The notes below the pieces were generated by a model. The model did no database searches. It was not told the DNA's origin and was given only the letters and a program-made list of their open reading frames with translations. A program made the position numbers and the translations under genes. A DNA stretch of 45,634 bases from a virus, in IMG/VR virus record IMGVR_UViG_3300029266_001356, positions 1 to 45,634 of that record; one strand, given 5' to 3'. How positions within the stretch are numbered: position 1 is the first letter of the stretch; each line of letters begins with the position of its first letter. Positions 2,470-43,106 of the stretch are shown one piece after another.

Positions 2470-4029
2470 ATGGAATACAATCAGCCTAGCGAGATTGTCA
2501 AAGACTTAAACTTTGGCGATGGGGCTAAAAATAGAATAGCAGCTGGCGTAATAAAACTAGCTCAAGCAGTGAAATCAACCCTTGGAGCATCTGGAAAGTG
2601 CGTTATATACGAAGACGCCAGAGGACTTCCGGTCATAACAAAAGACGGTGTAACAGTTGCAGAATCTGTAGTCTTATTTGACCCGGTTGAAAACATGGGA
2701 GCTACTTTAATAAAAGAAGCGGCTAGAAATACAGTGAGAGAAGCAGGTGACGGCACTACTACAGCTACCGTCCTTGCTGAATCGTTGTTGAAAGAAGTTA
2801 ATAGTTGCAATAAAGATGTAACTATAAGAGACATAAAAGAAGGTATTAAATCTGGAGCTAAAAAAGTTAATGATTACCTAGATAAAGTTTCTGTAAAGAT
2901 CGAAGGCGATATGCTGGAATCTGTTAGTTCAATAAGCTGTAATAATGATGCGGAACTAGGAAAGATTATAGCGGAAGCTTATAATAAGGTAGGTAAGGAT
3001 GGTGTGGTAATGATGGAAGAGTCACCAACTGAAGAAACGTATGTTGAGATTGTTGATGGTGTACAGATAGATTCAGGACTCACTTCTGCACACTTTGTTA
3101 CCGATAAAGAAAAACAACTTGTTGATCTTGACAACCCACTAGTATTAATAGTATCTTCAGAAATACCAAACATAAGAAAAATACAAACAGTATTAGAACA
3201 TGTTATAAAGCATAAACGTTCACTACTTATAGTGGCTCCAGTTGATGCACAAGTAAAAGCTGCACTTGTTATGAATAAAGTGAAAGGTAATATCAAAGTG
3301 AATATAGTTGACTTACCAGGCTTTGGTCCTACTAAGAATGATACTGTAGCTGATTTAGCTTTTCTTGTAGGTGCTAGCGTAATCAATGAAGAATTAGGTG
3401 ATGATTTAGATCTTATAGATGTTAGTTGCTTAGGAGAGGCTTATTCAGCAGTAACAGATGATAAGACCACGGTGTTAACTATAGATATTCCAGAAGAAGC
3501 TATGGAAGAAAGAATAGCTATTATTAAGAAAACTATTGGTGAGTGGGATAAAAATCCATTTATACAAAAAAAGCATAGACAAAGATTAGCCATGCTGTCA
3601 GGTTCTGTTGGCGTGGTAAAAGTAGGTGCTGATTCAAAGATAGAGCTCAAAGAAAAGAAAGATAGAATAGAAGATGCTATTTACGCTACTAAAGCTGCTT
3701 TGAAAGAAGGCATTGTTCCAGGCGGTGGAGTTGCGTTACTAAATGCATCTCAAAAAATCTCCGCTAAAGCGGTTGGTGAAGAAATACTAATGAAAGCTCT
3801 TCAAGCTCCTTTTTATACTATATTAGATAATGCCGGTATAACTATGGCCGCTGGTTACGAAGATCACGAAGGTTACGGTATTGATGTTATAACCGGTGAA
3901 AGAGCTACAATGATTTCAGCTGGTATAATAGATCCGGTTTTGGTTACAAAATCGGCGCTTAAAAATGCTGTTAGCGTAGTATCGACAATAATATCTGCAG
4001 ATTGTGTAATTTCAAATATGAGAATGTAA
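2470..4029 (+). CDS. groEL: GroEL-like chaperonin (Cpn60)
   Basis: 519 residues, against about 545 for bacterial GroEL. ATP-dependent barrel chaperonins enclose unfolded proteins. Visible signatures: TLGASGK (38-44; TLGPKGR in E. coli), ITKDGVTVA (56-64), the ATP-loop motif GDGTTTATVLA (93-103), the catalytic region DRIEDAIYAT (398-407) that holds the equivalent of Asp398, and GIVPGGGVALL shortly after. The equatorial, intermediate and apical segments all appear present in order. The C-terminus ends SNMRM and lacks the Gly-Gly-Met tail. The co-chaperonin follows with a TAATG overlap, so the pair is co-translated. Phage GroELs are known in some large and marine phages; here it probably helps fold virion proteins. 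It may be an active ring or partner with host subunits. Confidence 0.95.
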   Translation: MEYNQPSEIVKDLNFGDGAKNRIAAGVIKLAQAVKSTLGASGKCVIYEDARGLPVITKDGVTVAESVVLFDPVENMGATLIKEAARNTVREAGDGTTTATVLAESLLKEVNSCNKDVTIRDIKEGIKSGAKKVNDYLDKVSVKIEGDMLESVSSISCNNDAELGKIIAEAYNKVGKDGVVMMEESPTEETYVEIVDGVQIDSGLTSAHFVTDKEKQLVDLDNPLVLIVSSEIPNIRKIQTVLEHVIKHKRSLLIVAPVDAQVKAALVMNKVKGNIKVNIVDLPGFGPTKNDTVADLAFLVGASVINEELGDDLDLIDVSCLGEAYSAVTDDKTTVLTIDIPEEAMEERIAIIKKTIGEWDKNPFIQKKHRQRLAMLSGSVGVVKVGADSKIELKEKKDRIEDAIYATKAALKEGIVPGGGVALLNASQKISAKAVGEEILMKALQAPFYTILDNAGITMAAGYEDHEGYGIDVITGERATMISAGIIDPVLVTKSALKNAVSVVSTIISADCVISNMRM

Positions 4030-4286
4030 TGAAAGCAATTAATAGATATATAATAGTAGACAGAATAAAGACAGAGCCTAAGAAGGTTGCTGGTCTTATA
4101 ATGACGGACGATACAGATGTAGACAACCGTTATATAAAAGCAAAAATAATATCATGTGGAAATTTAGTTGAAGCATTAAAAGATGGAGACGTGATATATT
4201 ACGATAAACACGCTGGACACGACATATCATGGAAAGATACTCTTTATAGAGTTATTCAAGATAGAGACGTTGTTTTGATGTGCTAG
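4029..4286 (+). CDS. groES: GroES-like co-chaperonin (Cpn10)
   Basis: 85 residues from the ATG that overlaps the GroEL stop codon (TAATG). An upstream in-frame ATG at 4002 would need 27 bases inside groEL and adds residues that do not fit the family. The start MKAINRYIIVDRIKTEPKK aligns with the GroES opening (IRPLHDRVIVKR), the segment KKVAGLIMTDD corresponds to the mobile loop with its hydrophobic tripeptide, and LKDGDVIYYDKHAG matches the conserved GD.V.F block. GroES caps the GroEL barrel. The order groEL-groES is the reverse of the usual bacterial groES-groEL operon, which argues against recent capture of a host operon intact. Confidence 0.85.
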   Translation: MKAINRYIIVDRIKTEPKKVAGLIMTDDTDVDNRYIKAKIISCGNLVEALKDGDVIYYDKHAGHDISWKDTLYRVIQDRDVVLMC

Positions 4287-6363: not shown

Positions 6364-6795
6364 ATGGCATTTAAAATGAAAGGCTCCGCTTTTTACGGAC
6401 ACGGAAACGCGGCACCAACGAAACAAAAAGTATCAGGAAAATCTTTAGATAATGATATGGAAGGACCTATAGATAGAAAAAATCTAAAACTTCAAAAAGG
6501 CGAAATGGATGGTACTTATATATTCGGTAGAAACTATGGTGACGAAGGTACTAGTAAGGGTGAGGGCTTTGAACCTACTGGTACTAAAGATCAAAAGTTC
6601 ACGGCTAATGAAAGAATAAATGACTATGAAGAGAGAGCTGGTTTTTTAACTGACAATGATATTCCAGACCTTGAGGGTTCAACTAATCCTAAAGATGTTA
6701 AAAGAAGAAAAACTTTAAAAAAGACAGCAAAAAAACTTGAAGACGAAGCTCAAATAATGAGGGATAGAAGAAAAAACGAAAGAAAATCTAAATAA
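6364..6795 (+). CDS. Charged protein with MAFKMKGS tag
   Basis: 143 residues from the ATG at 6364. The frame is open from 6331, but the MAFKMKGSAFYGHG tag fixes the true start, with an A-rich leader before it. After the tag come a polar Gly/Asp-rich middle and a basic C-terminal helix (about residues 105-143, KDVKRRKTLKKTAKKLED...). No known domain, no membrane segment. The tag is almost the same as that of the 90-residue protein at 1834. Its last base overlaps the holin start codon (TAATG), so translation is coupled. Confidence 0.7.
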   Translation: MAFKMKGSAFYGHGNAAPTKQKVSGKSLDNDMEGPIDRKNLKLQKGEMDGTYIFGRNYGDEGTSKGEGFEPTGTKDQKFTANERINDYEERAGFLTDNDIPDLEGSTNPKDVKRRKTLKKTAKKLEDEAQIMRDRRKNERKSK

Positions 6796-7181
6796 TGTTA
6801 GGTAAACTTTTATCTGGTGGTGCTACTGAACTAATAAAGAGTGTTGGTGGCGTTATAGACAACTTGCATACTTCAAAAGAAGAAAAGTTAGCAGCTGAAC
6901 TTAAAATCAAAGAGATGGTTATGGGTTACGAAGCTGAAATGCAAAAGCAAGTAACGGAGAGATGGAAAATGGATATGCAGTCTGATTCTTGGCTTAGTAA
7001 AAACATAAGACCACTAGTCTTAATATTCTTAGTAGTATCAACAGTGTTGTTAATATTTATTGACGCTGGCATTATTAAGTTTGAGGTTAAATCCTCGTGG
7101 GTAGACTTATTACAATTAGTATTAATAACAGTGATTGGTGCCTACTTCGGTGGACGATCATTAGAAAAAGTAAAAAAATAA
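6795..7181 (+). CDS. Holin, GTA_holin_3TM-like
   Basis: 128 residues. N-terminal GGVIDNLHTSKEEKLAAELK (residues 18-37) forms an amphipathic helix continuing as a coiled coil, then DSWLSKNIRPLVLIFLVV opens a membrane helix (71-93), and WVDLLQLVLITVIGAYFGGR a second (101-120). The W.S.N.RP...(15-20)...GAYFGGRSLEK pattern is that of the holin family PF11351, named for gene-transfer-agent release. Holins make lesions in the inner membrane that time lysis. I see no endolysin in this window, so the lysis enzyme must be elsewhere or unrecognised. TAATG overlap with the upstream tagged gene. Confidence 0.8.
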   Translation: MLGKLLSGGATELIKSVGGVIDNLHTSKEEKLAAELKIKEMVMGYEAEMQKQVTERWKMDMQSDSWLSKNIRPLVLIFLVVSTVLLIFIDAGIIKFEVKSSWVDLLQLVLITVIGAYFGGRSLEKVKK

Positions 7182-30845: not shown

Positions 30846-33800
30846 ATGGATGAGGAATTACAAGTAATTATTGAAGGGATGAAGGCTGAAAATAAAGCCT
30901 CAGAAGACGAAGGTGGCTTAGAAATATATAGTGAAAATCAGTTTAAAGAGGTTGTTGAAACTTATAAGGCTACAGCCGTAAAAACAAAAGAAACTCCTAT
31001 TACAAGTAACGTGGAAAAGACAAACGGCTCAACAAATGTTGCGATTGTAGAGCCGAGAAGCACGGCAACAAATGGGGAGTTCAAGGATGGAAATGGTTTA
31101 TTGGAATCAGTAGAGTTTGAAGATGAGTCACTAAATAAGTCTAACAGTTGGGTGGATACTAATGGTAATCCAATAGGCTTTTTGTACCCTGAAATGAAAA
31201 TAACTTCAAAGAGCGAGAACGAAGAAATTAAAAAACCTACTTTATTAGAAAAAATAGGTAATATAAATATTTTTAAAGGTAAAACTCTTAACGATTTTTT
31301 TCCAGAAAAAAAAGATAAAAAGGAAGAGATAGAGGAAGAAATAAAAGAGGTAAAAATAGAGATACCAACACCAGAGGCAGATGCAACTCAAACTAAAAAA
31401 GTAGTAGAACCAGAAATCATAGAAGAAGAAAAACCAGGTACAAGCTATTATTATGATGAAAAAGACGGTGAGATTAAAGAAAACGTAGTAGAAACTCTAG
31501 ATGAGCTTCTTGAAGATAGACCTTTTACGTTTACCTTTGATGGTGAAAAAATTTATCTTGATAAGCCAGTAGAAGAAGAAAAAGAAGAAGAGCCCGAATT
31601 GGCGACAACTGCACTTGGTGATGTTTTTACGGGTATTGCAAAAATATATAATCTTGGTAAAAGTGTTTTTGATGACAAAAACGTAAAAGATAAGCTTTTA
31701 GACAATGTTGAAAAAAGGTATTACGATATCAACAATAATCTAGCTATAGGTCTGCAAAGCATTTATATTGATGGCTTAAAGTTGCTTGAAGAAAGCATGG
31801 GGGATAAAGCGGGTGTGACAGCATTGGATGACATGTTTGGTGATTACGGTGAGGCTGTGTGGTTTACTACAGAGGGTAAAATTGTTCCTTTATCAGACAG
31901 AACACTTACAAATGAAGAAAGTTACGCTCAAGGTCACATGTTGATATATAAAGATTCTGGCATAAAAGTTGGAGATCCTTACAAGCAATACGTTATAAAA
32001 CAATATGAATACATTTTAGAAGTTGAGCTACTAAAAAATAACCCAGAGCTTTCTATTACAGATGGTTACAAAGATGGTGATGCAGCAATGTTTTTTGGTG
32101 GGGTTTTTAATGCCATAACAAGTTTGGCGGAGACTATGGGGCCAGCTATAGCAACTAGAGGTTTTAGTTTAATACCACAAATAACGGCACCGTTTTATAT
32201 TGACGCTGCTAGAGAGAAGGCTAAAAGATTATACCCAGGTTTATCAGAAAAAGCTGCTATTGCTAAGTTGGTTTTGAACGGTGAAGAAGACGTTTTGATA
32301 CCCAACTTATTAGGTTTAGCCGCTGGTCAATTAGAGAGAATTGGTTTTAGGGGTATTATAAAAGCTATGCGAATGAACCCCGCCACTTTTAGCCAAGGTT
32401 TTGCTAATATTTTTCTATCCGGCCAAAGAGAAGGTATTACAGAGCTAGGTCAAACCGGTTTAGAAATTTACAACAAAAGTTTAGCGGCTGGAGAGGAAAA
32501 AGCAATTTATCTTGCTTGGGCGGGAATGACAGGTCCTCAAGGTTTAGAAGCTTACTTGCAAGGAGTTGTGGGTGGTACTGGCGTATCTACCGGTGGTAGT
32601 TTAATCAGTAGAGCATTTAGAACTAACAAAGAAGATATAAAGAAAATAAACAACAATATCAGAAAACAATCTGAATTAAAAGGTAAGCTAAACTTCTTCA
32701 ATAACAACAAAGGTGAGAGTAATAAAAAGCTGCGAGACTACTACATGTCAGAGATAGCAAAGTTAAATTCAGAGCTTGTAGATATAGTTGACAATAGTAA
32801 TAAGTTATCAAGATATTTAACTAAAGAAGAACAAGAGTTTGTTGTATCTTTACTACAATCTTATGACAATAAAACTCAAGAGTACCATAGTGAATACTAC
32901 GATGCTTATAAAGGTGTTTTTGAGTTTGCTGATTCTAATGGTATATCTGTAGAGCAAGCTTTAAAAGAAAACTACCCACAATTAGAAGCTCAGTGGCAAG
33001 AGTTAAAAGAGGTTTTAGAAAAAGAAGCTATTGACATTGTTAGTCAGATAGATGCTATAAGAAAACGTGCCAATGAGAGAATGATTGATGATGGTATAAA
33101 AAAGGCTGACAAACGAGGTATAATGCGAACTGTCTTTGAAACTAAAGAAGAGGTTGATGCTTGGTTAAACGATCCGGCTAATGAAAAGCTGTTTGAAAAA
33201 CAAGCAAAAGAAGATGGTGTGACTGTAACTGAACTTAAAAATAGATATAAAAACGCTAATGGTTGGGAATTAGATGGAGAAGTGTTTGTTAACAAACCTA
33301 AGGCTATAGAAACTGGTGCTATTGGAGTTACGGAGCACGAGATAGCTCATCTTTTATTTGGTAAAAGTATTAGAGATAAAAACGGTAACATAACAGAAGA
33401 AGGACACGCTTTAATTGTAAAGTTTAAAAAAGCAATAGGACCAAGAGTTGAAACAATAATAACATTACAACTTTTAGCTAATGGATACAACTTGAGCGAT
33501 CCAAACATACAGGAAGAATATTTAACTACGTACCTAGATGGTGTCAAGGACGGTTCGTTTAAAACAAACAAAAAAGCGTTAAGGTTATTAGGTAAAGAAG
33601 TTACAAGTTTACTTAAGGACTCTGGTTATACTAATATAAAGTTTAAAACCGTTCAAGACATAATGGATTGGTTTACAAGTTATATTGGCGATAAAGATAC
33701 CGGTAAAAGTGAAGTGGAAAGAACACCACCTTCAACATCAATACCTTTATCTAGCTTTAGTAGAACTGATTTAGAGGGACCAATCATAGAGCTTGGTAAA

Positions 33801-36800
33801 GTTAGTCAAGATGTTTGGAGTAAAACAGGCGCCGACAATGCTATAACTTACATGTTTGGCAAGTTAGATGGTTTGATAAAAAGCAAGATAACGCTAGCAA
33901 TGCAAGATCTGCCTGATTTTAGCGAGGAAGATTTTATACAAAGAACTTATGTGGAGCTCATACCACATATTAGAAACTTTGTACCAGCTCAATACAATGA
34001 AGATGGAAGTAGAAAGCTTGATGGTAACGGTAATGCAATAGGTAACGATAATCTTTGGGCTTGGATAACAAGTCAACTTAGAAATAAGTCTTTAGAAGCA
34101 CTTAAAAGTGATGATGTAACTAAATCTCAGTTTGAAGAAAGCGTACAAGACGAAGGTAGTTTTATAAACGATATAGAGTCTGATGATTACGTTGATTTAG
34201 AATTGTCTATAGAAGAAGATGTTACGTATAGTGGTTTAAGAAATATATTAGGTATTAAAAGAGGTGATGAGCTTCACAAAAAAATAATAGAAGGTATTAA
34301 AAAAATAATACCATTAGAGATAAAAAACCTAGATACTCCAGCTTTCAAAAAAGCTCTTAAAAAGTATTTTAACGATTATTTGTTTGATGATATTAAAAAG
34401 ATTTTAGGTGGTATTCCTACAAAAGATGGCTACAAAAACTTTATTACAAACAACGCGGAAGCTTTATATAATTTGTTTCCACAGTCGGTATTCAACAAAT
34501 CATTTGGCGACTTCGTAATAGAGCTTGAAAGCAACATACCCCCAACAAGAGTTGATGAGCTTGTAAAAGAAGGGAAGTTACCAAAAGAAATGTCAGGTGC
34601 GAAAAAAAGACTCTCTGGCCCTTCGTTGTTTGGAAAACTACCTTGGAACGAAGATACAAAGCAAAAATGGATAGATAATTTTTTAAACCCACCAAAAGGT
34701 AGACCAGCTTCAAAGCAAAATTCATTAATAGAGTTGATATCTTACACTTTAGGTATTGACGCTACAATGGAAGTTATAAACTCTGAGGAGTTTAAAGGTA
34801 AACATGAAATATCTGATATTGTTATCGCTACTATTGGTATGAAAATAGATAGAGGTGCGAATGTTAGGTTTAATAAAACCAACGGTAGCGAAGGTAATCT
34901 TAACGAAAATAACTTCGACAAAAAGCAAGCCGAGGAAATGGTTAAGTATATAGAAACTGAAATTGGTTTTGATGAGATTGGCCCTGGTGATGTGGCAGAT
35001 TTGTTAAAAACCAACTTTCCTACAGCTGCTGAAGATGTAATAGCCTTAATAGAAAAGATGGCTGATTTAGGCTATATAAAAGATCAAAACGGCACAATGT
35101 TTTTGCAAGGCATAATGCTTTCTAAGGATATAGATAAAAAAGACAAAGATCAAGTAAAAAACGATACCCTAGAAGATAAGCAAGATAAACTAAATAAAGC
35201 TGCAAACATTTTAGCGCCAAGGCTTGGGCCAGAAGTAATGAATTTACTTAAGTACGATATACTTGGCTATATTAATAGAATGATGGATGCAGCATTTAAA
35301 AAGAAAAACCCAGAATACAAGTATGATAAAACGCAACCGCAATACCTGGAAGACGACGCTGGTAACTTAATAAGCGGTCCGTTTTACAAGGCTTTAGAGG
35401 CTTTAAAATTAAAAGTTAAAAATAGTGAAGTAATACTTCCAGAAGGATTAAACCTTAATCTTGTTCGTTTGATGAACAAAAAGTTTGCTTTATTTACAAA
35501 AATAGAGAAAATACTTAATGATGGAGATAGTAAAATTGATGGTAGTAATATTGCGTGGAAAAAAGCTGAAATACTTAAATTAAATGGTGAGATAACGGCT
35601 GCTGGTGAGGCTAATATTAAATTAGCAAAATTCATAGCAAGCGAAATAATCAAGGCAGATGAGATAGATGTTGTGACAGCAATTCATTTATTGCAAATAC
35701 AAACAAACGCTGTATCTGGCTTTAGAGCGTTAACTACCTTAGATCTTATAACTATATTAGAAGGATCACAGAAAGCTGATGAGAATCACCCTTATTACAA
35801 GGCTGAGCTTGCTATAGCTAAAAAAGCAAAACACAAATCAGGTGAATTTGAAGGCCAACTAAAGTATCCTACTGAAGAGTTAGCTATTGAAGCCGCTATA
35901 AAGGCATTGGGCACTAAAGGAGAGCACGCGGCGGCAAACGCTAACACTATGTTGAAATTAGCTATTTTGAAAGCTAAGTACATGAAGGATAAAAATATAG
36001 ATGTAGACTTAGAGCTAGCAAAAATATTTCAAGGTCACGGTCAAATACATGGTACTAAAGGAACGTTTAATCTATTAGATAAGTTTGGTACAACTAATGT
36101 AGCTGATTGGCTTAGAACAATGCTCGACCCTAGAAGAAACGATATGTTTAGTCCAGACGGGAGGACAGCTGAGCAAGTTGTTATTGAAAAACTCATAGAT
36201 CAAGAATCAGTGGTAACACCTAATCTCTCTATAAGTGATGAGTTCAACCAAATGCTTGAGGAAAACGAAGGTGTTGGCAAAGAAAAAGTATACTCTAAAG
36301 CAAAGGGCAGAATAGAAGGTGGTGAAAGATCAAATATATGGGACTACATACTGCCTCCATCCGCTTATGATTTTGAGTTATTTATATACAGAATTATTGG
36401 AAAAAAAGACAAAGGAGCGCAAGACATGGCCTTCTTTAAAAAATATTTGTTTGATCCTTACAACGTAGCTTATAAAAACATGCAGGATGATGCTCAAAGA
36501 GTAGCTGACGATTTTAAGGCTTTAGTTAAAAGACTTCCTCAAGTTAAAAAGAATTTAAAAAAGCTTATTCCAGGGACAAAATGGACGTACGAACAAGCTG
36601 TGAGAGTTTCTATATGGAATGAAATGGGGTTAGAAATACCTGGTTTATCAAAAACAGATCTAGCAATATTAATAAAAGCTGTTAAAGGTGACGCTAAGTT
36701 AATTGAATATAAAGATGGTTTAAAAAACGTTATACCAGATAGTTATCCACCTCCAACGGATTACTGGACTATTGAAGGGATCGCTTACGACTTGAATCAA

Positions 36801-38471
36801 TCTGTAAACAAAGTGTCTAGAGCTAAGCACTTAGAGATTTGGAAGAAAAATAAAGAATTAATATTTTCTCCGGAAAATAGAGCTAAGTTAGAGGCTATTT
36901 ATGGCGCAAGATATGCAGAGTCACTAGACAACATGCTATATAGAATGGAGTATGGTAGCAATCAAAAAAGTTCTTCTAGGATAGAGTCTAATTGGAATAA
37001 TTGGGTTAACAACTCTGTTGGGGCTATTATGTTTTTTAACTTTAAATCTGCATCGCTGCAATTAATTTCAGCGGCAAACTTTATTGACTTAGAAAATAAC
37101 ACGCCATATAAAGCAGCTAAACAATTTGCAAACGTTCCAAGATACAAGAAAAACTTTGTTAAAATATTGTATTCTAGTTACCTAAAGCAAAGAAGAAGTG
37201 GAAGTACAAGAACTGTAAATGAAGCTGAGCTTACTGAGTATTTAAAAGGAAAGAAAAACCCGTTAAAAGCAGCTTTAGCGTGGTTGCTAAACAAAGGTTT
37301 TGCACCTACTTCAGCGGCGGATAGTCTTGCCATTGCGGTAGGTGGTGCTAGTTTTCTTGCTAACCAAGAGGATTTTTATATTGCTCAAGGGAAGTCTGTT
37401 GCCGAAGCAGAGGCACAAGCGTGGATTGACTTTAATGATAAAGCTGAAAAAGGACAACAGTCTTCTAGACCTGATCTTATATCAGAGCAACAAGCTGGTG
37501 GTTTAGGTAGGTTGATTTTAGCGTTTAAAAACACTCAACAACAGTACTTCCGTATAATGACAAAAGCGGTTTTAAATATAAAAAACAAACGAGGTAACCT
37601 AAAGTCTCATATATCTCAAATTGCTTATTATGCTTTTTTACAAAACGCTTTATTTGCAACTTTACAAACAGCTTTATTTGCCGCTCTTGGCGATGACGAA
37701 GAGTGGGATAATAAAACAGATAGAATAGCTCAAACTATGATTGACAGTGTTCTTGCTGGTATGGGATTAACGGGAACAGTAATCATCACTATTAAAAATG
37801 GTGTTATGATGTACAAAAAGCAAAAGTTAAAAGGCTTTAATGCTGATCACACTAAAACTATACTTGCTTTTGCAAATCTATCACCAACAATTGGCTCTAA
37901 GCTTAGAAAACTATATTCAGCTATAAGAACAGAGGAATTAAACCAAGACGCTATTGATGCAATGGGACTTGATATTAATAGTCCAGCGGTAAACGCTATT
38001 GCTAGTTTAATATCAGCGGCAACTAACGTGCCTGTAGACAGGGCCGTTTCAATAACTCAAAATTTAATATTAGCATCACAAGATGAAACTGAGTTTTTTG
38101 ATAGTTTAGCTTTAGTTTTAGGCTGGTCTGCTTGGGACGTAGGTGTTGAGCCAATTTCAAGAAAAATAAATCAAGAAGCTAAAGAGAAGAGAAAAAAGTT
38201 GATGAAAGAGCTTAAGCTAATGGAGAAGGAAAAAGAAAACTTAGCAAAACAAAAGTTGTTAAAAAGTAAAGGTTTTTGTGCAGGTGCTAAAAAGGATGGA
38301 AAAGATTGTGGTTTGCCAGTTGTTGAGGGCACTAGCTTTTGTACTATACATGCAAAGGTAAAAGAAAGAAAAGATGGTAAAAAAGTAAGGTGTTCAAAAA
38401 TTAAAAAAGGAGGAAAACAATGTGGTGTTATGACTTCGGCTGAAAGTGGCTTATGTTATTACCACGATTAG
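30846..38471 (+). CDS. Giant internal virion protein with HExxH motif and two C-terminal zinc fingers
   Basis: 2541 residues. The first ~250 are acidic and disordered. Residues 831-835 are HEIAH (in VTEHEIAHLLFGKS), a zincin metallopeptidase motif. Around 1030-1081, FIQRTYVELIPHIRNF and LWAWITSQLRNK form a helical block faintly like sigma factor region 2. The region near 1870-2250 is helix-rich, with a hydrophobic segment at 2256-2281 (ISQIAYYAFLQNALFATLQT). The C-terminus carries two C-x9-C-x10-C-xx-H fingers: Cys2478, 2488, 2499, His2502 and Cys2516, 2526, 2537, His2540. Giant proteins at this place in short-tail phages are stored in the head and ejected; this one may add peptidase and nucleic-acid or protein binding. 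A virion RNA polymerase was considered but no polymerase motif is visible. Confidence 0.7.
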   Translation: MDEELQVIIEGMKAENKASEDEGGLEIYSENQFKEVVETYKATAVKTKETPITSNVEKTNGSTNVAIVEPRSTATNGEFKDGNGLLESVEFEDESLNKSNSWVDTNGNPIGFLYPEMKITSKSENEEIKKPTLLEKIGNINIFKGKTLNDFFPEKKDKKEEIEEEIKEVKIEIPTPEADATQTKKVVEPEIIEEEKPGTSYYYDEKDGEIKENVVETLDELLEDRPFTFTFDGEKIYLDKPVEEEKEEEPELATTALGDVFTGIAKIYNLGKSVFDDKNVKDKLLDNVEKRYYDINNNLAIGLQSIYIDGLKLLEESMGDKAGVTALDDMFGDYGEAVWFTTEGKIVPLSDRTLTNEESYAQGHMLIYKDSGIKVGDPYKQYVIKQYEYILEVELLKNNPELSITDGYKDGDAAMFFGGVFNAITSLAETMGPAIATRGFSLIPQITAPFYIDAAREKAKRLYPGLSEKAAIAKLVLNGEEDVLIPNLLGLAAGQLERIGFRGIIKAMRMNPATFSQGFANIFLSGQREGITELGQTGLEIYNKSLAAGEEKAIYLAWAGMTGPQGLEAYLQGVVGGTGVSTGGSLISRAFRTNKEDIKKINNNIRKQSELKGKLNFFNNNKGESNKKLRDYYMSEIAKLNSELVDIVDNSNKLSRYLTKEEQEFVVSLLQSYDNKTQEYHSEYYDAYKGVFEFADSNGISVEQALKENYPQLEAQWQELKEVLEKEAIDIVSQIDAIRKRANERMIDDGIKKADKRGIMRTVFETKEEVDAWLNDPANEKLFEKQAKEDGVTVTELKNRYKNANGWELDGEVFVNKPKAIETGAIGVTEHEIAHLLFGKSIRDKNGNITEEGHALIVKFKKAIGPRVETIITLQLLANGYNLSDPNIQEEYLTTYLDGVKDGSFKTNKKALRLLGKEVTSLLKDSGYTNIKFKTVQDIMDWFTSYIGDKDTGKSEVERTPPSTSIPLSSFSRTDLEGPIIELGKVSQDVWSKTGADNAITYMFGKLDGLIKSKITLAMQDLPDFSEEDFIQRTYVELIPHIRNFVPAQYNEDGSRKLDGNGNAIGNDNLWAWITSQLRNKSLEALKSDDVTKSQFEESVQDEGSFINDIESDDYVDLELSIEEDVTYSGLRNILGIKRGDELHKKIIEGIKKIIPLEIKNLDTPAFKKALKKYFNDYLFDDIKKILGGIPTKDGYKNFITNNAEALYNLFPQSVFNKSFGDFVIELESNIPPTRVDELVKEGKLPKEMSGAKKRLSGPSLFGKLPWNEDTKQKWIDNFLNPPKGRPASKQNSLIELISYTLGIDATMEVINSEEFKGKHEISDIVIATIGMKIDRGANVRFNKTNGSEGNLNENNFDKKQAEEMVKYIETEIGFDEIGPGDVADLLKTNFPTAAEDVIALIEKMADLGYIKDQNGTMFLQGIMLSKDIDKKDKDQVKNDTLEDKQDKLNKAANILAPRLGPEVMNLLKYDILGYINRMMDAAFKKKNPEYKYDKTQPQYLEDDAGNLISGPFYKALEALKLKVKNSEVILPEGLNLNLVRLMNKKFALFTKIEKILNDGDSKIDGSNIAWKKAEILKLNGEITAAGEANIKLAKFIASEIIKADEIDVVTAIHLLQIQTNAVSGFRALTTLDLITILEGSQKADENHPYYKAELAIAKKAKHKSGEFEGQLKYPTEELAIEAAIKALGTKGEHAAANANTMLKLAILKAKYMKDKNIDVDLELAKIFQGHGQIHGTKGTFNLLDKFGTTNVADWLRTMLDPRRNDMFSPDGRTAEQVVIEKLIDQESVVTPNLSISDEFNQMLEENEGVGKEKVYSKAKGRIEGGERSNIWDYILPPSAYDFELFIYRIIGKKDKGAQDMAFFKKYLFDPYNVAYKNMQDDAQRVADDFKALVKRLPQVKKNLKKLIPGTKWTYEQAVRVSIWNEMGLEIPGLSKTDLAILIKAVKGDAKLIEYKDGLKNVIPDSYPPPTDYWTIEGIAYDLNQSVNKVSRAKHLEIWKKNKELIFSPENRAKLEAIYGARYAESLDNMLYRMEYGSNQKSSSRIESNWNNWVNNSVGAIMFFNFKSASLQLISAANFIDLENNTPYKAAKQFANVPRYKKNFVKILYSSYLKQRRSGSTRTVNEAELTEYLKGKKNPLKAALAWLLNKGFAPTSAADSLAIAVGGASFLANQEDFYIAQGKSVAEAEAQAWIDFNDKAEKGQQSSRPDLISEQQAGGLGRLILAFKNTQQQYFRIMTKAVLNIKNKRGNLKSHISQIAYYAFLQNALFATLQTALFAALGDDEEWDNKTDRIAQTMIDSVLAGMGLTGTVIITIKNGVMMYKKQKLKGFNADHTKTILAFANLSPTIGSKLRKLYSAIRTEELNQDAIDAMGLDINSPAVNAIASLISAATNVPVDRAVSITQNLILASQDETEFFDSLALVLGWSAWDVGVEPISRKINQEAKEKRKKLMKELKLMEKEKENLAKQKLLKSKGFCAGAKKDGKDCGLPVVEGTSFCTIHAKVKERKDGKKVRCSKIKKGGKQCGVMTSAESGLCYYHD

Positions 38472-38505: not shown

Positions 38506-39540
38506 ATGGTAAGAATACTAATAATAATACTAATGTTAGCTTGCAACATTACACAAGCTCAAGAGCTAAAAAAACTTTTTAAGTTTTCTACGTTCTATGC
38601 TGCTGTTAACGGTGGTAACTCTATATCTGACGTAGATGTTTTTTCCGTGTCTAACGGGTTAGAGACAGCTACAGTTAAAACTCCTTATGATTATAACATA
38701 TCACTAGGTATACGTAAAATTGCTAGATTTGGTTATGAAAACAAAGCGCAAACTTTTTACGATGGTACTGAGGAGTCTTGGTCGGACGGTGCTAATATAG
38801 GTAAAGTTTCTGGTTTAGAGTTTTTGTTTGAAGTAGATTACAAAAGAGAACAAAACGTAGACTATTTAGACCAACATCATTTTATTAGATATGTTAAAGA
38901 CAATTATGTACTAAAAGGTGAATACCTAGAAGATGGTTTTGCTGATATAAAGTATTTTGAAACATCAGAAAGATATAGATATAAAGTTAATGACAAATTA
39001 TCGTTTAACGCTGGGCTTGCACAAAGATTATCTGAACCTTATGGGTATGATCCTTTAGCAGAGTGGATGTTAAGCAGTGGTAATATACATTACACTTACC
39101 TAGCATTACAACAAGGTTACAATGTTGATGTTGCTGCTAGTGAGTATTTTTCTCCTAACGGAGAGCTCGTTGCTACAAGCAAAGAGGTTTGGGAAGAAGT
39201 TGTTATACCAACAATGTTAGCTGACTATACTGAAAAGAAAAGAAATGAGTTAGAAAAAACTATACAACACTCTTTTGTTGTTGGTTTTGACTACTATAAG
39301 TATACAAAATCTAACTGGATACACACCTGGGCAAGTTTAATGCCTTATCATTACGATGACATTAGTGAGTTTTCGTATCACAACTACGTAGATGGTCAAT
39401 GGTATGATTACTCTGCTGGCTTGATATATGGCGTAAAAGTAAATAAAAGTTTAGGTTACTTTGTAGAGGGAAAATACAATAAGTACTGGAATAGACGCTG
39501 GTACGATTTTAAATTAGGATTAAATTATACAATATTTTAA
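38506..39540 (+). CDS. Exported outer-membrane-barrel-like protein
   Basis: 344 residues. It starts with a signal peptide (MVRILIIILMLACNITQAQE; cleavage probably after ITQA). The mature part is rich in aromatic-flanked alternating strands (FSTFYAAVNGGNSISD, YRYKVNDKLSFNAGLAQRLS, YFVEGKYNKYWNRRWYDFKL) and ends in a terminal Phe, as Gram-negative outer-membrane beta-barrels do. The sequence contains long loops. A phage-encoded barrel could block receptors against other phages, or change host surface properties during infection. It starts 34 bases after the giant gene. I recall similar proteins in uncultured marine phages; function not established. Confidence 0.65.
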   Translation: MVRILIIILMLACNITQAQELKKLFKFSTFYAAVNGGNSISDVDVFSVSNGLETATVKTPYDYNISLGIRKIARFGYENKAQTFYDGTEESWSDGANIGKVSGLEFLFEVDYKREQNVDYLDQHHFIRYVKDNYVLKGEYLEDGFADIKYFETSERYRYKVNDKLSFNAGLAQRLSEPYGYDPLAEWMLSSGNIHYTYLALQQGYNVDVAASEYFSPNGELVATSKEVWEEVVIPTMLADYTEKKRNELEKTIQHSFVVGFDYYKYTKSNWIHTWASLMPYHYDDISEFSYHNYVDGQWYDYSAGLIYGVKVNKSLGYFVEGKYNKYWNRRWYDFKLGLNYTIF

Positions 39541-39541
39541 C

Positions 39542-40036
39542 ATGGCATTCAAACTAAAATCAGGAAACACAAGTTCTTTTAAAAAAATGGGATCGTCCGC
39601 GGCAAAACAAAGAAGAACAGGTAAATTTGTAGTAAAAGATGGTAAAAAAGTTTACCAAGAAAATGAAAAAGGTGATGATGGTTATGGAGGCGAAGGTTTT
39701 ATGCAGCCACCTTACAGGTATCCAGCTGGGCCAACTGAAAAAAGAAAAGGTTACCACGGTTACAAGCCAAAAGAAATAAACTTTAACAAAAAAGTTATGG
39801 TTGATGGTGAAACTAATGAGTTTAATAAAGCTAAAATAAAAGCTAATAAAGAAACATTTGACAAACTAAGCCAAGCAGATAAAGATAAACTACAAAAAGC
39901 TGCGAATGAAAAAAGAGCAAAATTTGAAGCAAGTGATGAATATAAAAAAAGAAAAAAGAATAGTAGTTCACCAGCAGGATTTGTATCAGCTGCGCAGCGA
40001 AAAGCTGTGTGGGCAAGTAAAAACGAAAAGAAGTAA
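39542..40036 (+). CDS. Basic protein with MAFKLK tag and SAAQRKAVWAS motif
   Basis: 164 residues from ATG one base after the barrel gene. It begins MAFKLKSGNTSSFKKMGSSA, a variant of the tag found far upstream at 836-6800. The middle is Lys/Gly-rich; the end contains SPAGFVSAAQRKAVWASKNE, a motif I recall from small basic phage proteins. No membrane segment. It is followed by a TAATG overlap. A basic, tagged protein placed among exported proteins shows the tagged family is spread over the genome and not one local duplication. Confidence 0.7.
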   Translation: MAFKLKSGNTSSFKKMGSSAAKQRRTGKFVVKDGKKVYQENEKGDDGYGGEGFMQPPYRYPAGPTEKRKGYHGYKPKEINFNKKVMVDGETNEFNKAKIKANKETFDKLSQADKDKLQKAANEKRAKFEASDEYKKRKKNSSSPAGFVSAAQRKAVWASKNEKK

Positions 40037-40320
40037 TGGCTAAAGAATTAAACGAAAACACTGGATTTAACGTAAGTATTAAAACTTTAATGGCAATTGG
40101 AGCTGCAATAACGACTGTTGTTGGTATGTGGTTTGCTTTACAAGCTGATATAGCCGAAGCAAAAGAACTTCCAAAAGCTCCTCCGCCAGATGTAAGCCGT
40201 ATGGAATTTGATATGAAAGATCAAAACATTAGGCTGTCTATTGAAAATACAGAAAAAGCAGTAGACGAGTTAAAACAAAGGTTGATTAGAATGGAAGAAA
40301 AAATAGACGACTTGAGATGA
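40036..40320 (+). CDS. Membrane-anchored coiled-coil protein (possible spanin or holin partner)
   Basis: 94 residues: a short polar N-terminus, one membrane segment (about 14-36, SIKTLMAIGAAITTVVGMWF), a proline-rich spacer (LPKAPPPDVSR), then a coiled coil (RMEFDMKDQNIRLSIENTEK and on to the end). One N-terminal anchor with a periplasmic coil is the layout of an inner-membrane spanin; a regulatory holin partner is equally possible. No outer-membrane lipoprotein mate is evident here. Stop/start overlaps bind it to both neighbours (TAATG before, ATGA after). Confidence 0.6.
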   Translation: MAKELNENTGFNVSIKTLMAIGAAITTVVGMWFALQADIAEAKELPKAPPPDVSRMEFDMKDQNIRLSIENTEKAVDELKQRLIRMEEKIDDLR

Positions 40321-40676
40321 AAAAAATTGACACTACTTGGAAGATTTTTGCTGGTTATTTATTAGTATTGTTTTTAATGATATGCAGTTCAGTAGCTAAT
40401 GCTCAGGTAGTAGTAACACATTTTAACGCGGCTTGGAACGATCCAAACAAAGTAGCTTACATAGGTAAATTAACAGATTGTGAGATAGTATATGTAGATA
40501 TAGCTAAATCACCTAAGTTACAAGCTAAACACGAGATAGTTGTAGTGCCTACCGTAGTTATATATAAAGATGGTGAAGAAGTAAAAAGGTTTCAAGCTGA
40601 CATATCGTTTAGCATGAAAGCTACAAGAAAAGAAATGCAGCAAGTGATAGATGAATTATTAATGAGCGACTTTTAA
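40317..40676 (+). CDS. Exported thioredoxin-fold protein lacking the active cysteines
   Basis: 119 residues. A signal peptide (about 1-29, ending SSVANA|Q) is followed by a thioredoxin-like domain: strand VVVTHFNAAW, then NDPNK where thioredoxin has CGPCK, a helix, strand EIVYVDIA, the cis-proline turn VVPTVVIYKDGEEVKRF (Pro78) and a final helix. Both catalytic cysteines are absent (W40-NDPN in place of WCGPC), so it cannot be a dithiol oxidoreductase. An inactive exported fold suggests a binding role, for example partner or inhibitor of a host periplasmic protein. It overlaps the previous gene by four bases. Confidence 0.65.
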   Translation: MKKIDTTWKIFAGYLLVLFLMICSSVANAQVVVTHFNAAWNDPNKVAYIGKLTDCEIVYVDIAKSPKLQAKHEIVVVPTVVIYKDGEEVKRFQADISFSMKATRKEMQQVIDELLMSDF

Positions 40677-40677
40677 A

Positions 40678-41037
40678 ATGGCATACGTACAAGCAAATAA
40701 TCCTTTTCCAGTTACAAGTTGTGGTAGACGTAGGTCTTTCATGCAAGGTGGTAATCCTGGAGACGACAGAACAAAACAAAGTCCTTTTGAGCAGTCAAAC
40801 AAAAGAACAAAAGGTAAAGATAGACATTTTAGAACACCAGAGGAAGGCGCTGGGATGACATCTAAAGGAGTTGCATCTTACAAGGCAGCAAATCCAGGTA
40901 GTAAATTAAAAACAGCTGTTACAGGTAAAGTTAAAGCAGGAAGCAAAGACGCGGGTAGAAGAAAATCATTTTGTGCTAGATCTATAGGATGGAAAGGTGA
41001 AAGAGGTAAAGCCGCTAGGGCAAGATGGAAATGTTAA
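40678..41037 (+). CDS. Basic protein with GRRKSFCAR/ARWKC motif (DUF6321-like)
   Basis: 119 residues, very basic. It starts MAYVQANNPFPVTSCGRRRS and has the conserved-looking tail GMTSKGVASYKAANPGSKLK, then DAGRRKSFCARSIGWKGERG and RARWKC at the very end. The RRKSFCARM.G...R..WNC type of ending recalls the DUF6321 family of phage proteins, function unknown; two cysteines and many arginines suggest metal or nucleic-acid binding. It follows the previous stop by one base and precedes the short MRNAPL gene. Confidence 0.65.
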   Translation: MAYVQANNPFPVTSCGRRRSFMQGGNPGDDRTKQSPFEQSNKRTKGKDRHFRTPEEGAGMTSKGVASYKAANPGSKLKTAVTGKVKAGSKDAGRRKSFCARSIGWKGERGKAARARWKC

Positions 41038-41055
41038 CAAATAAATATATATAAA

Positions 41056-41220
41056 ATGAGAAATGCACCACTAAAAGGATTAATGAAAAAAGCTTCGCCA
41101 ATGATGTTTAAAGGAGCCGACTCTTCAAACTCCTCATGCTGGAAGGGATACAAAAAAGTAGGAACAAAAAAATCTCCAAGCGGAACTGGAAAAACAGTTA
41201 ACGACTGTAAAAAAATATAA
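41056..41220 (+). CDS. 54-aa protein of the MRNA[SP]L family
   Basis: Too short for usual ORF calling but well supported: ATG at 41056, stop overlapping the next start (TAATG at 41218-41222), and an N-terminus MRNAPLKGLMKKASPMMFKG matching the protein at 836 (MRNASLPGLIKK). It then has a CWKGYKK motif, parallel to CSVDGYKR there. Contains SPMMF, like the tag core of the MAFK proteins. Basic, no membrane segment. Function unknown. Confidence 0.7.
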   Translation: MRNAPLKGLMKKASPMMFKGADSSNSSCWKGYKKVGTKKSPSGTGKTVNDCKKI

Positions 41221-43106
41221 TGAAAAAACTACTACTACTTGTATTATTAATACCAAATCTATTACTAGCTCAGTATTGCACTGACGCTTTTGTGTTGGTA
41301 AATCTAGATCAATATCCAAGTGAAACATCTTGGCAAATAGCAGATACAAATGGTGCTGTGTTGTTTTCAGGCGGTCCTTATACTGGCCAACCTTTTTACT
41401 CACCACAAACAACTATGATGTGTTTACCTCATGGTTATTTAGAATTTACTATATTCGATCAATATGGTGATGGTTTAGCTGGTAGTTTATGGGGTGGGCA
41501 AGACGGATCATACTACGTGGTGCAATGTGGAGATACTTTAGTTTATGGTGATACAGCAAACTTTGGGTACGATTCCGCCCACGTATTTATATCCGCTCCA
41601 TGTCCCCCGCCTCCAGTTATTCTTGGTTGTATGGATAGCTTATACTTTGAGTACATGCCTAACGCTACTTTAGACGATGGAAGTTGTTTAAACTTAGTAG
41701 TAGTAGGTTGTTTAGATACAAATGCTTTTAACTATGATCCATTAGCTAACGTTATGGATTTTATTGATAGCTGTACATTTGATTTATACTTACATGACTT
41801 AGTAGGTAACGGTTGGGTTGGAAGTAGATTAGAAATATACCAAGGTAGCGACACATCTGTATTTTTTATGACAAACAATGGTGCTAGTCAATTGTTTAAT
41901 ATAGATCTAGCTTCGCCTGAAGATGTTAGTGCAAGATTTTTTATAAACCAACAAGCTTTTAACACGTTGGTTGAGTGTGGTTTTACTTTATTGAACCCGT
42001 TTGGAGATACAGTTATGAGTGTTGTACCTCCTTTTATTTTACCGTTTATTAATTATGAAGGAACTACATATTGCGGCAATGAATGTATAGATGTTGTTGA
42101 AGGCTGTATGGACAGTTTAGCTTTTAATTACATGGACACGGCTAATACAAATGATTTTTGCTATTACAATCCAGGTTGTACTAGTCCAGCTTATTTAGCT
42201 TACCACGTGGATACTGCAATGGGAATAGTTAGAGATTACAATAATCAAGACAGTTGTTTAATAGGTGGTTTAGCTGTTTTTGGTTGTACAGATTTTTTAG
42301 CTTACAACTACAATCCGATAGCAAATGTTAATGTTGGTTGTTTACCATTTATTTATGGTTGTATGGATGTAACTATGTACAACTACGATCCGCTTGCTAC
42401 GGCGCCTGACACTTGCGTGCCTTTTGTTTATGGTTGTACTGATCCTTTAGCATTTAATTATGATCCACTTGCAAACAGTGATAACGGTAGTTGCACTGCG
42501 TTCGTATACGGTTGTACAGACAGTACAGCTTTTAACTATAACCCACTAGCCAATGCTGATAACTCTTCTTGTGTTGCTTTTATATACGGTTGCACGGACC
42601 CTTCTGCTCTTAACTATTCCCCGTCAGCAAACACGGAAGACTTTAGTTGTATTGCTTATGTTTATGGGTGTATGGATAGTTTGGCTCTTAACTACGATCC
42701 ACTGGCTAACACGGATAACGGTGCGTGTATTTCTATCGTTATGGGTTGCATGGATCAAACAGCGTATAACTTTAATGCAAATGCTAACACTGACAATCCT
42801 ATATCTTGTCGTTATAGCGCAGGTTGTATTACTGGTGATAGCATTCCTTACTGGTTAAACGATCCTTGCTACGCTTGGGTTATAGATATAGATAACTATT
42901 GTTGTGATAACGAGTGGGACGAAATATGTCAAGCAACATACGATTATTGTGAAGGTACTTGGGTTGGACCATTACCAAGAAGAATAGCTAACTTACTAAG
43001 AATAACAGATCTACTAGGTAGACCTGCTAAAATGAATACAAATCAATTACTGTTTTTCATATACGATGACGGAACAGTAGAAAAGAAAATATTAAAAAAA
43101 CAATAA
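41220..43106 (+). CDS. Secreted cysteine-repeat surface protein with T9SS-like C-terminus
   Basis: 628 residues. A signal peptide (MKKLLLLVLLIPNLLLA|Q, 1-17) is followed by ten repeats of the GC[MT]D..AFNY.P.AN...G.C type (136-156, 163-185, 295-314, 355-374, 380-399, 405-425, 430-451, 457-477, 483-503, 509-530), familiar from secreted Flavobacteriia proteins. A cysteine-rich block (CYAWVIDIDNYCCDNEWDEIC, split at 550-570) precedes the tail. The end, RRIANLLRITDLLGRPAK (587-604) and FFIYDDGTVEKKILKK, resembles T9SS sorting domains or host-protein ends with GR and YDDGTVEKK. It would be exported and surface-anchored in a Bacteroidetes host. Possible roles: superinfection exclusion or adhesion. 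It is unusual in a phage and supports the host assignment. Confidence 0.75.
   Translation: MKKLLLLVLLIPNLLLAQYCTDAFVLVNLDQYPSETSWQIADTNGAVLFSGGPYTGQPFYSPQTTMMCLPHGYLEFTIFDQYGDGLAGSLWGGQDGSYYVVQCGDTLVYGDTANFGYDSAHVFISAPCPPPPVILGCMDSLYFEYMPNATLDDGSCLNLVVVGCLDTNAFNYDPLANVMDFIDSCTFDLYLHDLVGNGWVGSRLEIYQGSDTSVFFMTNNGASQLFNIDLASPEDVSARFFINQQAFNTLVECGFTLLNPFGDTVMSVVPPFILPFINYEGTTYCGNECIDVVEGCMDSLAFNYMDTANTNDFCYYNPGCTSPAYLAYHVDTAMGIVRDYNNQDSCLIGGLAVFGCTDFLAYNYNPIANVNVGCLPFIYGCMDVTMYNYDPLATAPDTCVPFVYGCTDPLAFNYDPLANSDNGSCTAFVYGCTDSTAFNYNPLANADNSSCVAFIYGCTDPSALNYSPSANTEDFSCIAYVYGCMDSLALNYDPLANTDNGACISIVMGCMDQTAYNFNANANTDNPISCRYSAGCITGDSIPYWLNDPCYAWVIDIDNYCCDNEWDEICQATYDYCEGTWVGPLPRRIANLLRITDLLGRPAKMNTNQLLFFIYDDGTVEKKILKKQ
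41625..42809 (+). repeat. Ten GC[MT]D..AFNY repeats
   Basis: Ten cysteine-bounded repeats of about 20-23 residues; the last seven are nearly tandem with a spacing of about 25 residues. Each has a cysteine at each end, so each could close its own disulphide loop, and several have D/N-rich loops that could bind calcium. DNA identity between units is moderate, so divergence rather than recent slippage is indicated. Confidence 0.85.

Follow-up and report, generated by a model that had tools for sequence, protein, structure and literature searches.

An exported thioredoxin-fold phage protein with asparagine at both catalytic cysteine positions: a putative non-redox adaptor paired with a membrane protein

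The locus considered here raises the question of what a phage might do with an exported thioredoxin fold in which both catalytic cysteines have been replaced. The window, i.e., the whole stretch of DNA that was analyzed, is the linear, 45,634-base virus record IMGVR_UViG_3300029266_001356 (IMG/VR-class). The protein in question, TRX, is a 119 amino acid exported thioredoxin-fold protein encoded on the plus strand at 40317..40676; three neighboring genes are referred to as TMCC, OMB, and T9. The leader of TRX is hydrophobic and ends N-A-Q; after it come VVVTHFNAAWNDPNK, then a turn reading VVPTVVIYKDGEE, and finally a helix at the C-terminus. All TRX features lie on the plus strand. Residues 1-29 (40317..40403) form a signal peptide with a predicted signal peptidase I cut before Q30, leaving a mature domain of 90 residues (40404..40673) with the minimal thioredoxin fold, whose first element is the strand preceding the active-site helix. 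The active-site motif W40-N41-D42-P43-N44 (40434..40448) occupies the place of WCGPC, and Asn stands at both Cys positions, as the first-pass annotation had read; the cis-proline turn that it described was likewise found in the sequence, as V77-P78-T79. P78 (40548..40550, in VVPT) is the cis-Pro position, assigned from sequence, and its P-T pair is invariant among the TRX family sequences. TRX has two cysteines, C23 in the signal peptide and C55 (40479..40481; mature residue 26); the latter is the sole Cys of the mature protein and is not invariant.

By sequence, the window TRX scores just above the cut-off of the Pfam thioredoxin family PF00085 (E 4.6e-5; 23.8 bits, cut-off 23.5), and every one of 74 distinct mature family sequences, among them that of the window, has a PF00085 match at E<=0.01, the best being 7.6e-8. 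A search of PDB sequences with the window TRX returned thioredoxins from E 2.3e-5, and a family profile built from the 74 distinct mature sequences improved the best value to 1.7e-9. An AlphaFold2 model of the mature 90 residues, made on the 74 sequences, has a mean pLDDT of 80.2 and a pTM of 0.61, and its order of elements, b-a-b-a-b-b-a, is that of the minimal thioredoxin fold. Thioredoxins rank first for this model in VIA-align (Z 6.6, rmsd 2.2-2.3 over 66-67 residues), although a Z under 8 is by itself insufficient as proof of fold. Thioredoxins are also listed by Foldseek (best PDB E 1.4e-3), with an rmsd of ~15 A, and the global packing of the model is thus imperfect. Nearly all structural matches are thioredoxin-fold proteins; the BFVD match is the viral protein A0A516MHR8 (38% identity). 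Weak Pfam matches within the family were to KaiB (11 of 74 members) and TrbC_Ftype (2 of 74), and PHROGs gave no useful family for TRX. Sequence and predicted structure combined make the thioredoxin fold secure; structure prediction had been suggested in the first-pass annotation as a check on the fold, and the predicted fold is indeed thioredoxin-like.

Relatives were collected from IMG/VR in three ways. The first set consists of the best 80 of 188 TRX relatives and the window, making 81 loci (three of them, L074, L076, and L080, were re-read by an ORF caller, and all 80 loci plus the window are counted in the 81); the second is the best 80 of 450 TRX relatives found with a second profile; and the third was reached from the partner gene, as the best 80 of at least 589 TMCC relatives, i.e., those nearest the window TMCC. 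Note that the three TRX sets share contigs, and their counts are not additive.

A Gln directly after the signal-peptide cut is described as the Bacteroidetes Q-rule (PMC5837995). Gln at +1 with A, G, or S at -1 was present in 81/81 loci of the first set, and Gln was present in 80/80 of the second. In the TMCC-found set, judged by a loose pattern and reading, 74 of 78 TRX have a fitting Q, 69 after A/G/S/C and 5 after T. The earlier claim that the protein is exported is thus borne out by a signal peptide and Q-rule site, both predicted from sequence. The four TMCC-found members without a Q after the leader (L312, L314, L325, and L330) are diverged and carry an extra Cys pair ahead of the first strand; their phages may have hosts outside the Bacteroidota.

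Replacement of the catalytic cysteines is fixed across the family. Asn occupies both Cys sites in 81/81 loci of the first set, 80/80 of the second, and 78/78 of the TMCC-found set, the last count including four members with YNA that were read as WN..N in their sequences. The residue ahead of the motif is less constant, Phe replacing Trp in 12 of 78 TMCC-found TRX. At either site the 74 distinct sequences employ both Asn codons (42/32 and 49/25), which indicates that the amino acid is maintained as the underlying DNA changes.

Searches for a family member that retains cysteines pointed the same way. A pattern combining WC with KDGEExxR(F/Y)xAD found no WCxxC TRX in IMG/VR; 14 of its 15 matches were out of frame, and the in-frame one (L226) lies at another Trp. 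A looser pattern, WCxxC..PT..KDGEE, gave 33 thioredoxin-like matches in IMG/VR, all outside the TRX family and all, by the pattern itself, with Cys at both sites. A scan of ~85,000 bacterial and archaeal genomes with two short peptide patterns yielded 32 thioredoxin-like matches, 31 of them with CxxC; none of the 32 had [W/F]NxxN, and none had a TMCC match in the surrounding DNA examined, but with just two short patterns a cellular relative that has diverged strongly might escape detection. A tree was made from 28 NxxN rows and 32 phage rows with CxxC, by a quick method with the motif columns included and a 33-residue piece (L258) left out; in it the NxxN rows form one side of a branch with an SH-aLRT of 99. 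Two members (L274 and L320) have a longer N-terminal part that by eye resembles full thioredoxin, which fits a descent of TRX from ordinary thioredoxin. One of the 33 looser-pattern matches, L250, encodes both a WCGPC thioredoxin without a leader (L250:329-652), adjoining a gene that by eye reads as ribonucleotide reductase, and an exported NxxN TRX (L250:4645-5019); because the two forms are carried separately, that phage appears to keep redox work and TRX apart.

As judged from these sequences, TRX is not a one-off decay but a large phage family in IMG/VR, found so far only in phages. No cultured phage with TRX was seen in annotated phage records. The window TRX has 139 matches there at E<=10, none with 80% coverage; among the 40 matches listed, E is at best 1e-3, and those with an annotation are mostly named thioredoxin. 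Of two diverged family proteins run against the annotated phages, one had no match and the other ten weak partial ones (best E 3e-4). Because Asn stands at both Cys sites, TRX is incapable of thiol-disulfide exchange at the motif, and its role is probably to bind a partner, not to carry out redox chemistry. The first-pass annotation had likewise proposed a non-redox binding protein, and the signal peptide, the fold, and the fixed NxxN at the place of CxxC support it in this.

The window phage itself can be placed with the help of its large terminase, which matches 87 phage records, each covered to at least 80%; by host, these are Flavobacterium (68), Cellulophaga (15), Tenacibaculum (2), Maribacter (1), and unassigned (1). 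PHROG families are also matched by the terminase, portal, and virion proteins of the window. A flavobacterial or related host is likely for the window phage, and TRX-carrying phages in general are apparently many, uncultured, and hosted by Bacteroidota bacteria. By eye, two ORFs at 2470-4286 resemble phage GroEL and GroES; the phage whose terminase is nearest, MW202828, is annotated with both groeL and a chaperonin 10 kd subunit. A 2541 amino acid ORF (30846-38471) ends in two C-terminal Cys/His-rich repeats, recognized by eye, and had no match in the annotated phage collection.

The constant companion of TRX is TMCC (94 aa; 40036..40320, plus strand), which has one transmembrane segment near its N-terminus, a Pro-rich stretch, and, by eye, a likely coiled coil; the end of its reading frame and the start of TRX share 4 nt (ATGA). 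TMCC lies upstream of TRX within 1.7 kb in 81/81 loci, at a distance of up to 30 nt in 72, 31-400 nt in 3, and more than 400 nt in 6. The coupling is not universal, because in these last six TMCC stands more than 400 nt upstream. When first-ATG starts are used, 43 of the 66 directly adjacent pairs overlap by 1 or 4 nt. The reverse test, starting from the best 80 of at least 589 TMCC relatives, recovered TRX in 78/80 loci, and the two misses are contig ends. Across the family, the TMCC hydrophobic segment starts near residue 17 (KD19 median 1.96, n = 73) and is followed by net negative charge. In PHROGs, most of the families that TMCC matches have no assigned function (11 of 24 members match phrog_1009); there were weak single matches to a holin family (1/24) and to phrog_739, an Rz-like spanin (1/24, at 0.0095), both near E 0.009. 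Against annotated phages, the window TMCC had no match and the L250 copy had one, at E 0.5.

We therefore read TRX as a secreted, non-redox thioredoxin-fold adaptor that would pair with TMCC in a late envelope (possibly lysis) module. This reading as a whole, that the window is a tailed phage of a Bacteroidota host included, is tentative, and we put its probability at about 0.45.

Two further exported proteins are frequent in the neighborhood, and they bear on the strongest alternative. OMB (344 aa; 38506..39540, plus strand) has a signal peptide (..TQA|Q) and is modeled as an outer-membrane beta-barrel (pLDDT 76.3, pTM 0.73), its best structural match being Tsx (Z 14.9, rmsd 3.5, 193 residues aligned); it had no match in annotated phages. 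T9 (628 aa; 41220..43106, plus strand) has a signal peptide and Cys-rich GCTD..NY.P.A repeats. Several OMB homologues have the leader C-A-A-P-K-K-C-C-S-Q, which resembles a lipobox and a Q-rule site together. Among 66 T9 ORFs of over 400 aa, sorted by pattern, 19 have a sorting-type tail and 36 a tail like that of the window copy; another 10 are truncated, and 1 has a different ending. TIGR04183, the type A sorting domain of type IX secretion, was above cut-off in 6/6 homologues picked for sorting-like tails and below it in the one tested homologue with a window-type tail; the window T9 itself, with its other kind of tail, showed no TIGR04183 sorting domain at E<=1. The gene directly after TRX belongs to the DUF6321 family in 12/81 loci; in the window this family is represented by a small protein at 40678-41037 (DUF6321 E 1.1e-10).

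TRX could be a substrate-holding chaperone for T9 or OMB, in the manner of the non-catalytic b domains of PDI. In keeping with this, by rough counts from single-linkage clusters the T9 family occurs in 74/81 loci and the OMB family in 73/81; T9 is Cys-rich, with 35 Cys in the window copy, and is the next gene after TRX in 29/81 loci; and OMB lies inside the 2.5-kb flanks in 63/80 TMCC loci. The constant neighbor, however, is TMCC and neither T9 nor OMB: with ~4 kb examined on each side, a T9-family ORF is absent from L060 and L097 and an OMB-family ORF from L023, and L250 has no OMB match within the 14.9-kb stretch examined. The core is thus TMCC together with TRX, and we regard the chaperone role as unlikely.

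A second alternative, for which the decoy idea of the first-pass annotation was the starting point, looks to the host: TRX would be a decoy or inhibitor of a periplasmic thioredoxin-family partner, such as a DsbD/TlpA-like reductase or a receptor biogenesis factor, and its proposed effect would be superinfection exclusion or redox disturbance. In its favor, TRX is exported, thioredoxin-like, and without CxxC, and Q-rule exported proteins of unknown function are described in Porphyromonas phages (PMC10367356). A host protein is, however, a less economical choice of partner given the constant pairing with a phage-encoded TMCC, and a face that binds the proteins of diverse hosts would be expected to vary, whereas the motif is conserved, and so is the C-terminal stretch; by position, moreover, the TRX gene comes after the structural genes. 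On balance this seems to us rather improbable. Position is also what speaks for TRX being a part of the virion, or injected with the DNA, instead of a free periplasmic protein, since it lies downstream of the virion genes and the 2541 amino acid ORF on the same strand, and s43-family genes, structural-looking by eye, intervene between TMCC and TRX in 6/81 loci. Against this, a hydrophobic leader with A/G/S before the cut is present in 81/81 loci and no PHROGs virion family matches TRX, so we give a virion role little credence. That TRX is still redox-active through C55 is scarcely believable, for although mature position 26 is Cys in 70/81 loci (90- and 91-residue forms counted), 7/81 members have no Cys at all in the mature part, and in the model this residue opens the following strand and does not sit at the N-terminus of the helix. 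In descending order of probability, the main rivals are a chaperone for T9 or OMB, a host decoy, and a virion part.

Returning to the adaptor reading, the following sequence of events can be proposed. Sec export and the signal-peptidase cut would deliver a 90-residue periplasmic domain, the N-terminal Gln of which would probably be cyclised; cleavage and cyclisation are both suggested by the leader sequence. The thioredoxin groove, with its aromatic residue and cis-Pro loop, is kept, and NxxN allows no thiol-disulfide exchange there. The groove might then hold a peptide of a fixed partner with no mixed disulfide being formed; the constant gene pairing makes the periplasmic portion of TMCC the foremost candidate for that partner. 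Gene position suggests that the pair would work late, at the inner membrane, and in a module that often includes OMB and the exported Cys-rich protein. Its most likely purpose would be the control or execution of envelope disruption or lysis, holin/antiholin- or spanin-like in design and built of unrelated parts.

That the pair serves lysis is the weakest step, and the gene neighborhoods are divided on it. The location of TRX behind the virion genes speaks for it. An amidase-cluster gene lies directly after TRX in L055 and L056 (Pfam was run on the L056 copy), and holin-like, M15 peptidase, or amidase clusters occur in 22/81 loci and are absent from the flanks of 59/81; these genes were counted inside the fetched flanks, many of which were ended by contig edges, and the counts have no random baseline. 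A holin-like homologue lies near TRX in 10/81 loci, and one member of that cluster is 76% identical to the holin-like gene of the window. The latter (6795-7181), just under the cut-off of GTA_holin_3TM (PF11351; E 7.1e-5, 23.7 bits, cut-off 24.8), is 33 kb from TRX, which counts against the link to lysis, as does the fact that holin and spanin families are each matched by a single TMCC of 24. OMB and T9 as neighbors fit a role in surface remodelling as well. A bolder version would have TMCC, TRX, and OMB form a trans-envelope machine of Bacteroidota phages, with the inner-membrane coiled coil, the redox-dead periplasmic adaptor, and the outer-membrane pore acting together to time or execute rupture in place of known spanins or antiholins; we consider this doubtful.

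A search of the available literature found no description of the TRX family or of the TMCC-TRX pair. We class TRX as a new family within a known fold, distinguished by a genetic partnership that is also new, and its relation to known systems can be set out accordingly. With thioredoxin (PF00085), including the short phage form of L230, it shares the fold, the cis-Pro loop, and the aromatic residue before the motif, and the phage CxxC thioredoxins that score best on the TRX profile (~46 bits) are also short at the N-terminus. Unlike thioredoxin, TRX is exported, has Asn for both catalytic Cys, and has TMCC as a constant neighbor; it also falls far below the cut-off of the curated thioredoxin equivalog (27.4 bits against 96.8).

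TrbC and TraF, two periplasmic proteins of F-type conjugation, offer a precedent. Both are described as thioredoxin folds without CxxC that serve a secretion machine (PMC10939261). TRX resembles them in having such a fold without CxxC, but the surrounding genes differ and homology is not convincing, only 2/74 members touching PF09673 (best E 0.0057).

The holin T of T4 has one transmembrane segment and a periplasmic domain, and its antiholin, RI, suggests an analogy. RI is described as small and exported, with a signal peptide that can be cleaved, and as binding a membrane protein of the phage (PMC8385771, PMC11413866). TRX and TMCC recall RI and T in that a small exported protein accompanies a phage protein with one transmembrane segment; the likeness is one of design, TMCC is at most a candidate holin, and the window has a separate holin-like gene. 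In the Rz/Rz1 system, the inner-membrane spanin has an N-terminal transmembrane segment and then a coiled coil, and the second protein is an outer-membrane lipoprotein. TMCC would be like the inner-membrane spanin in its predicted N-terminal transmembrane segment and in a coiled coil that is judged likely by eye, and the TMCC and TRX genes often overlap; TRX, unlike Rz1, has no lipobox (Gln stands at +1 in 81/81) and so does not match an o-spanin, and its fold is that of thioredoxin.

Some T9 homologues, finally, are like proteins of Cryophage and crAss-like phages in being tagged for host type IX secretion: Cryophage is described as encoding T9SS cargo, and T9SS domains as lying near BACON genes of crAss-like phages (PMC7468147, PMC6949934). 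The available text of those reports describes no TMCC-thioredoxin pair, and the window T9 differs in having no detected sorting domain. Thioredoxin folds without CxxC are already known as adaptors in cells and in conjugation machines, and the NxxN phage family extends them. A fixed replacement of both cysteines, tied to one phage membrane protein, points to an undescribed periplasmic step in the action of phages on Bacteroidota, and the TMCC-TRX pair is small enough for direct tests of binding and expression.
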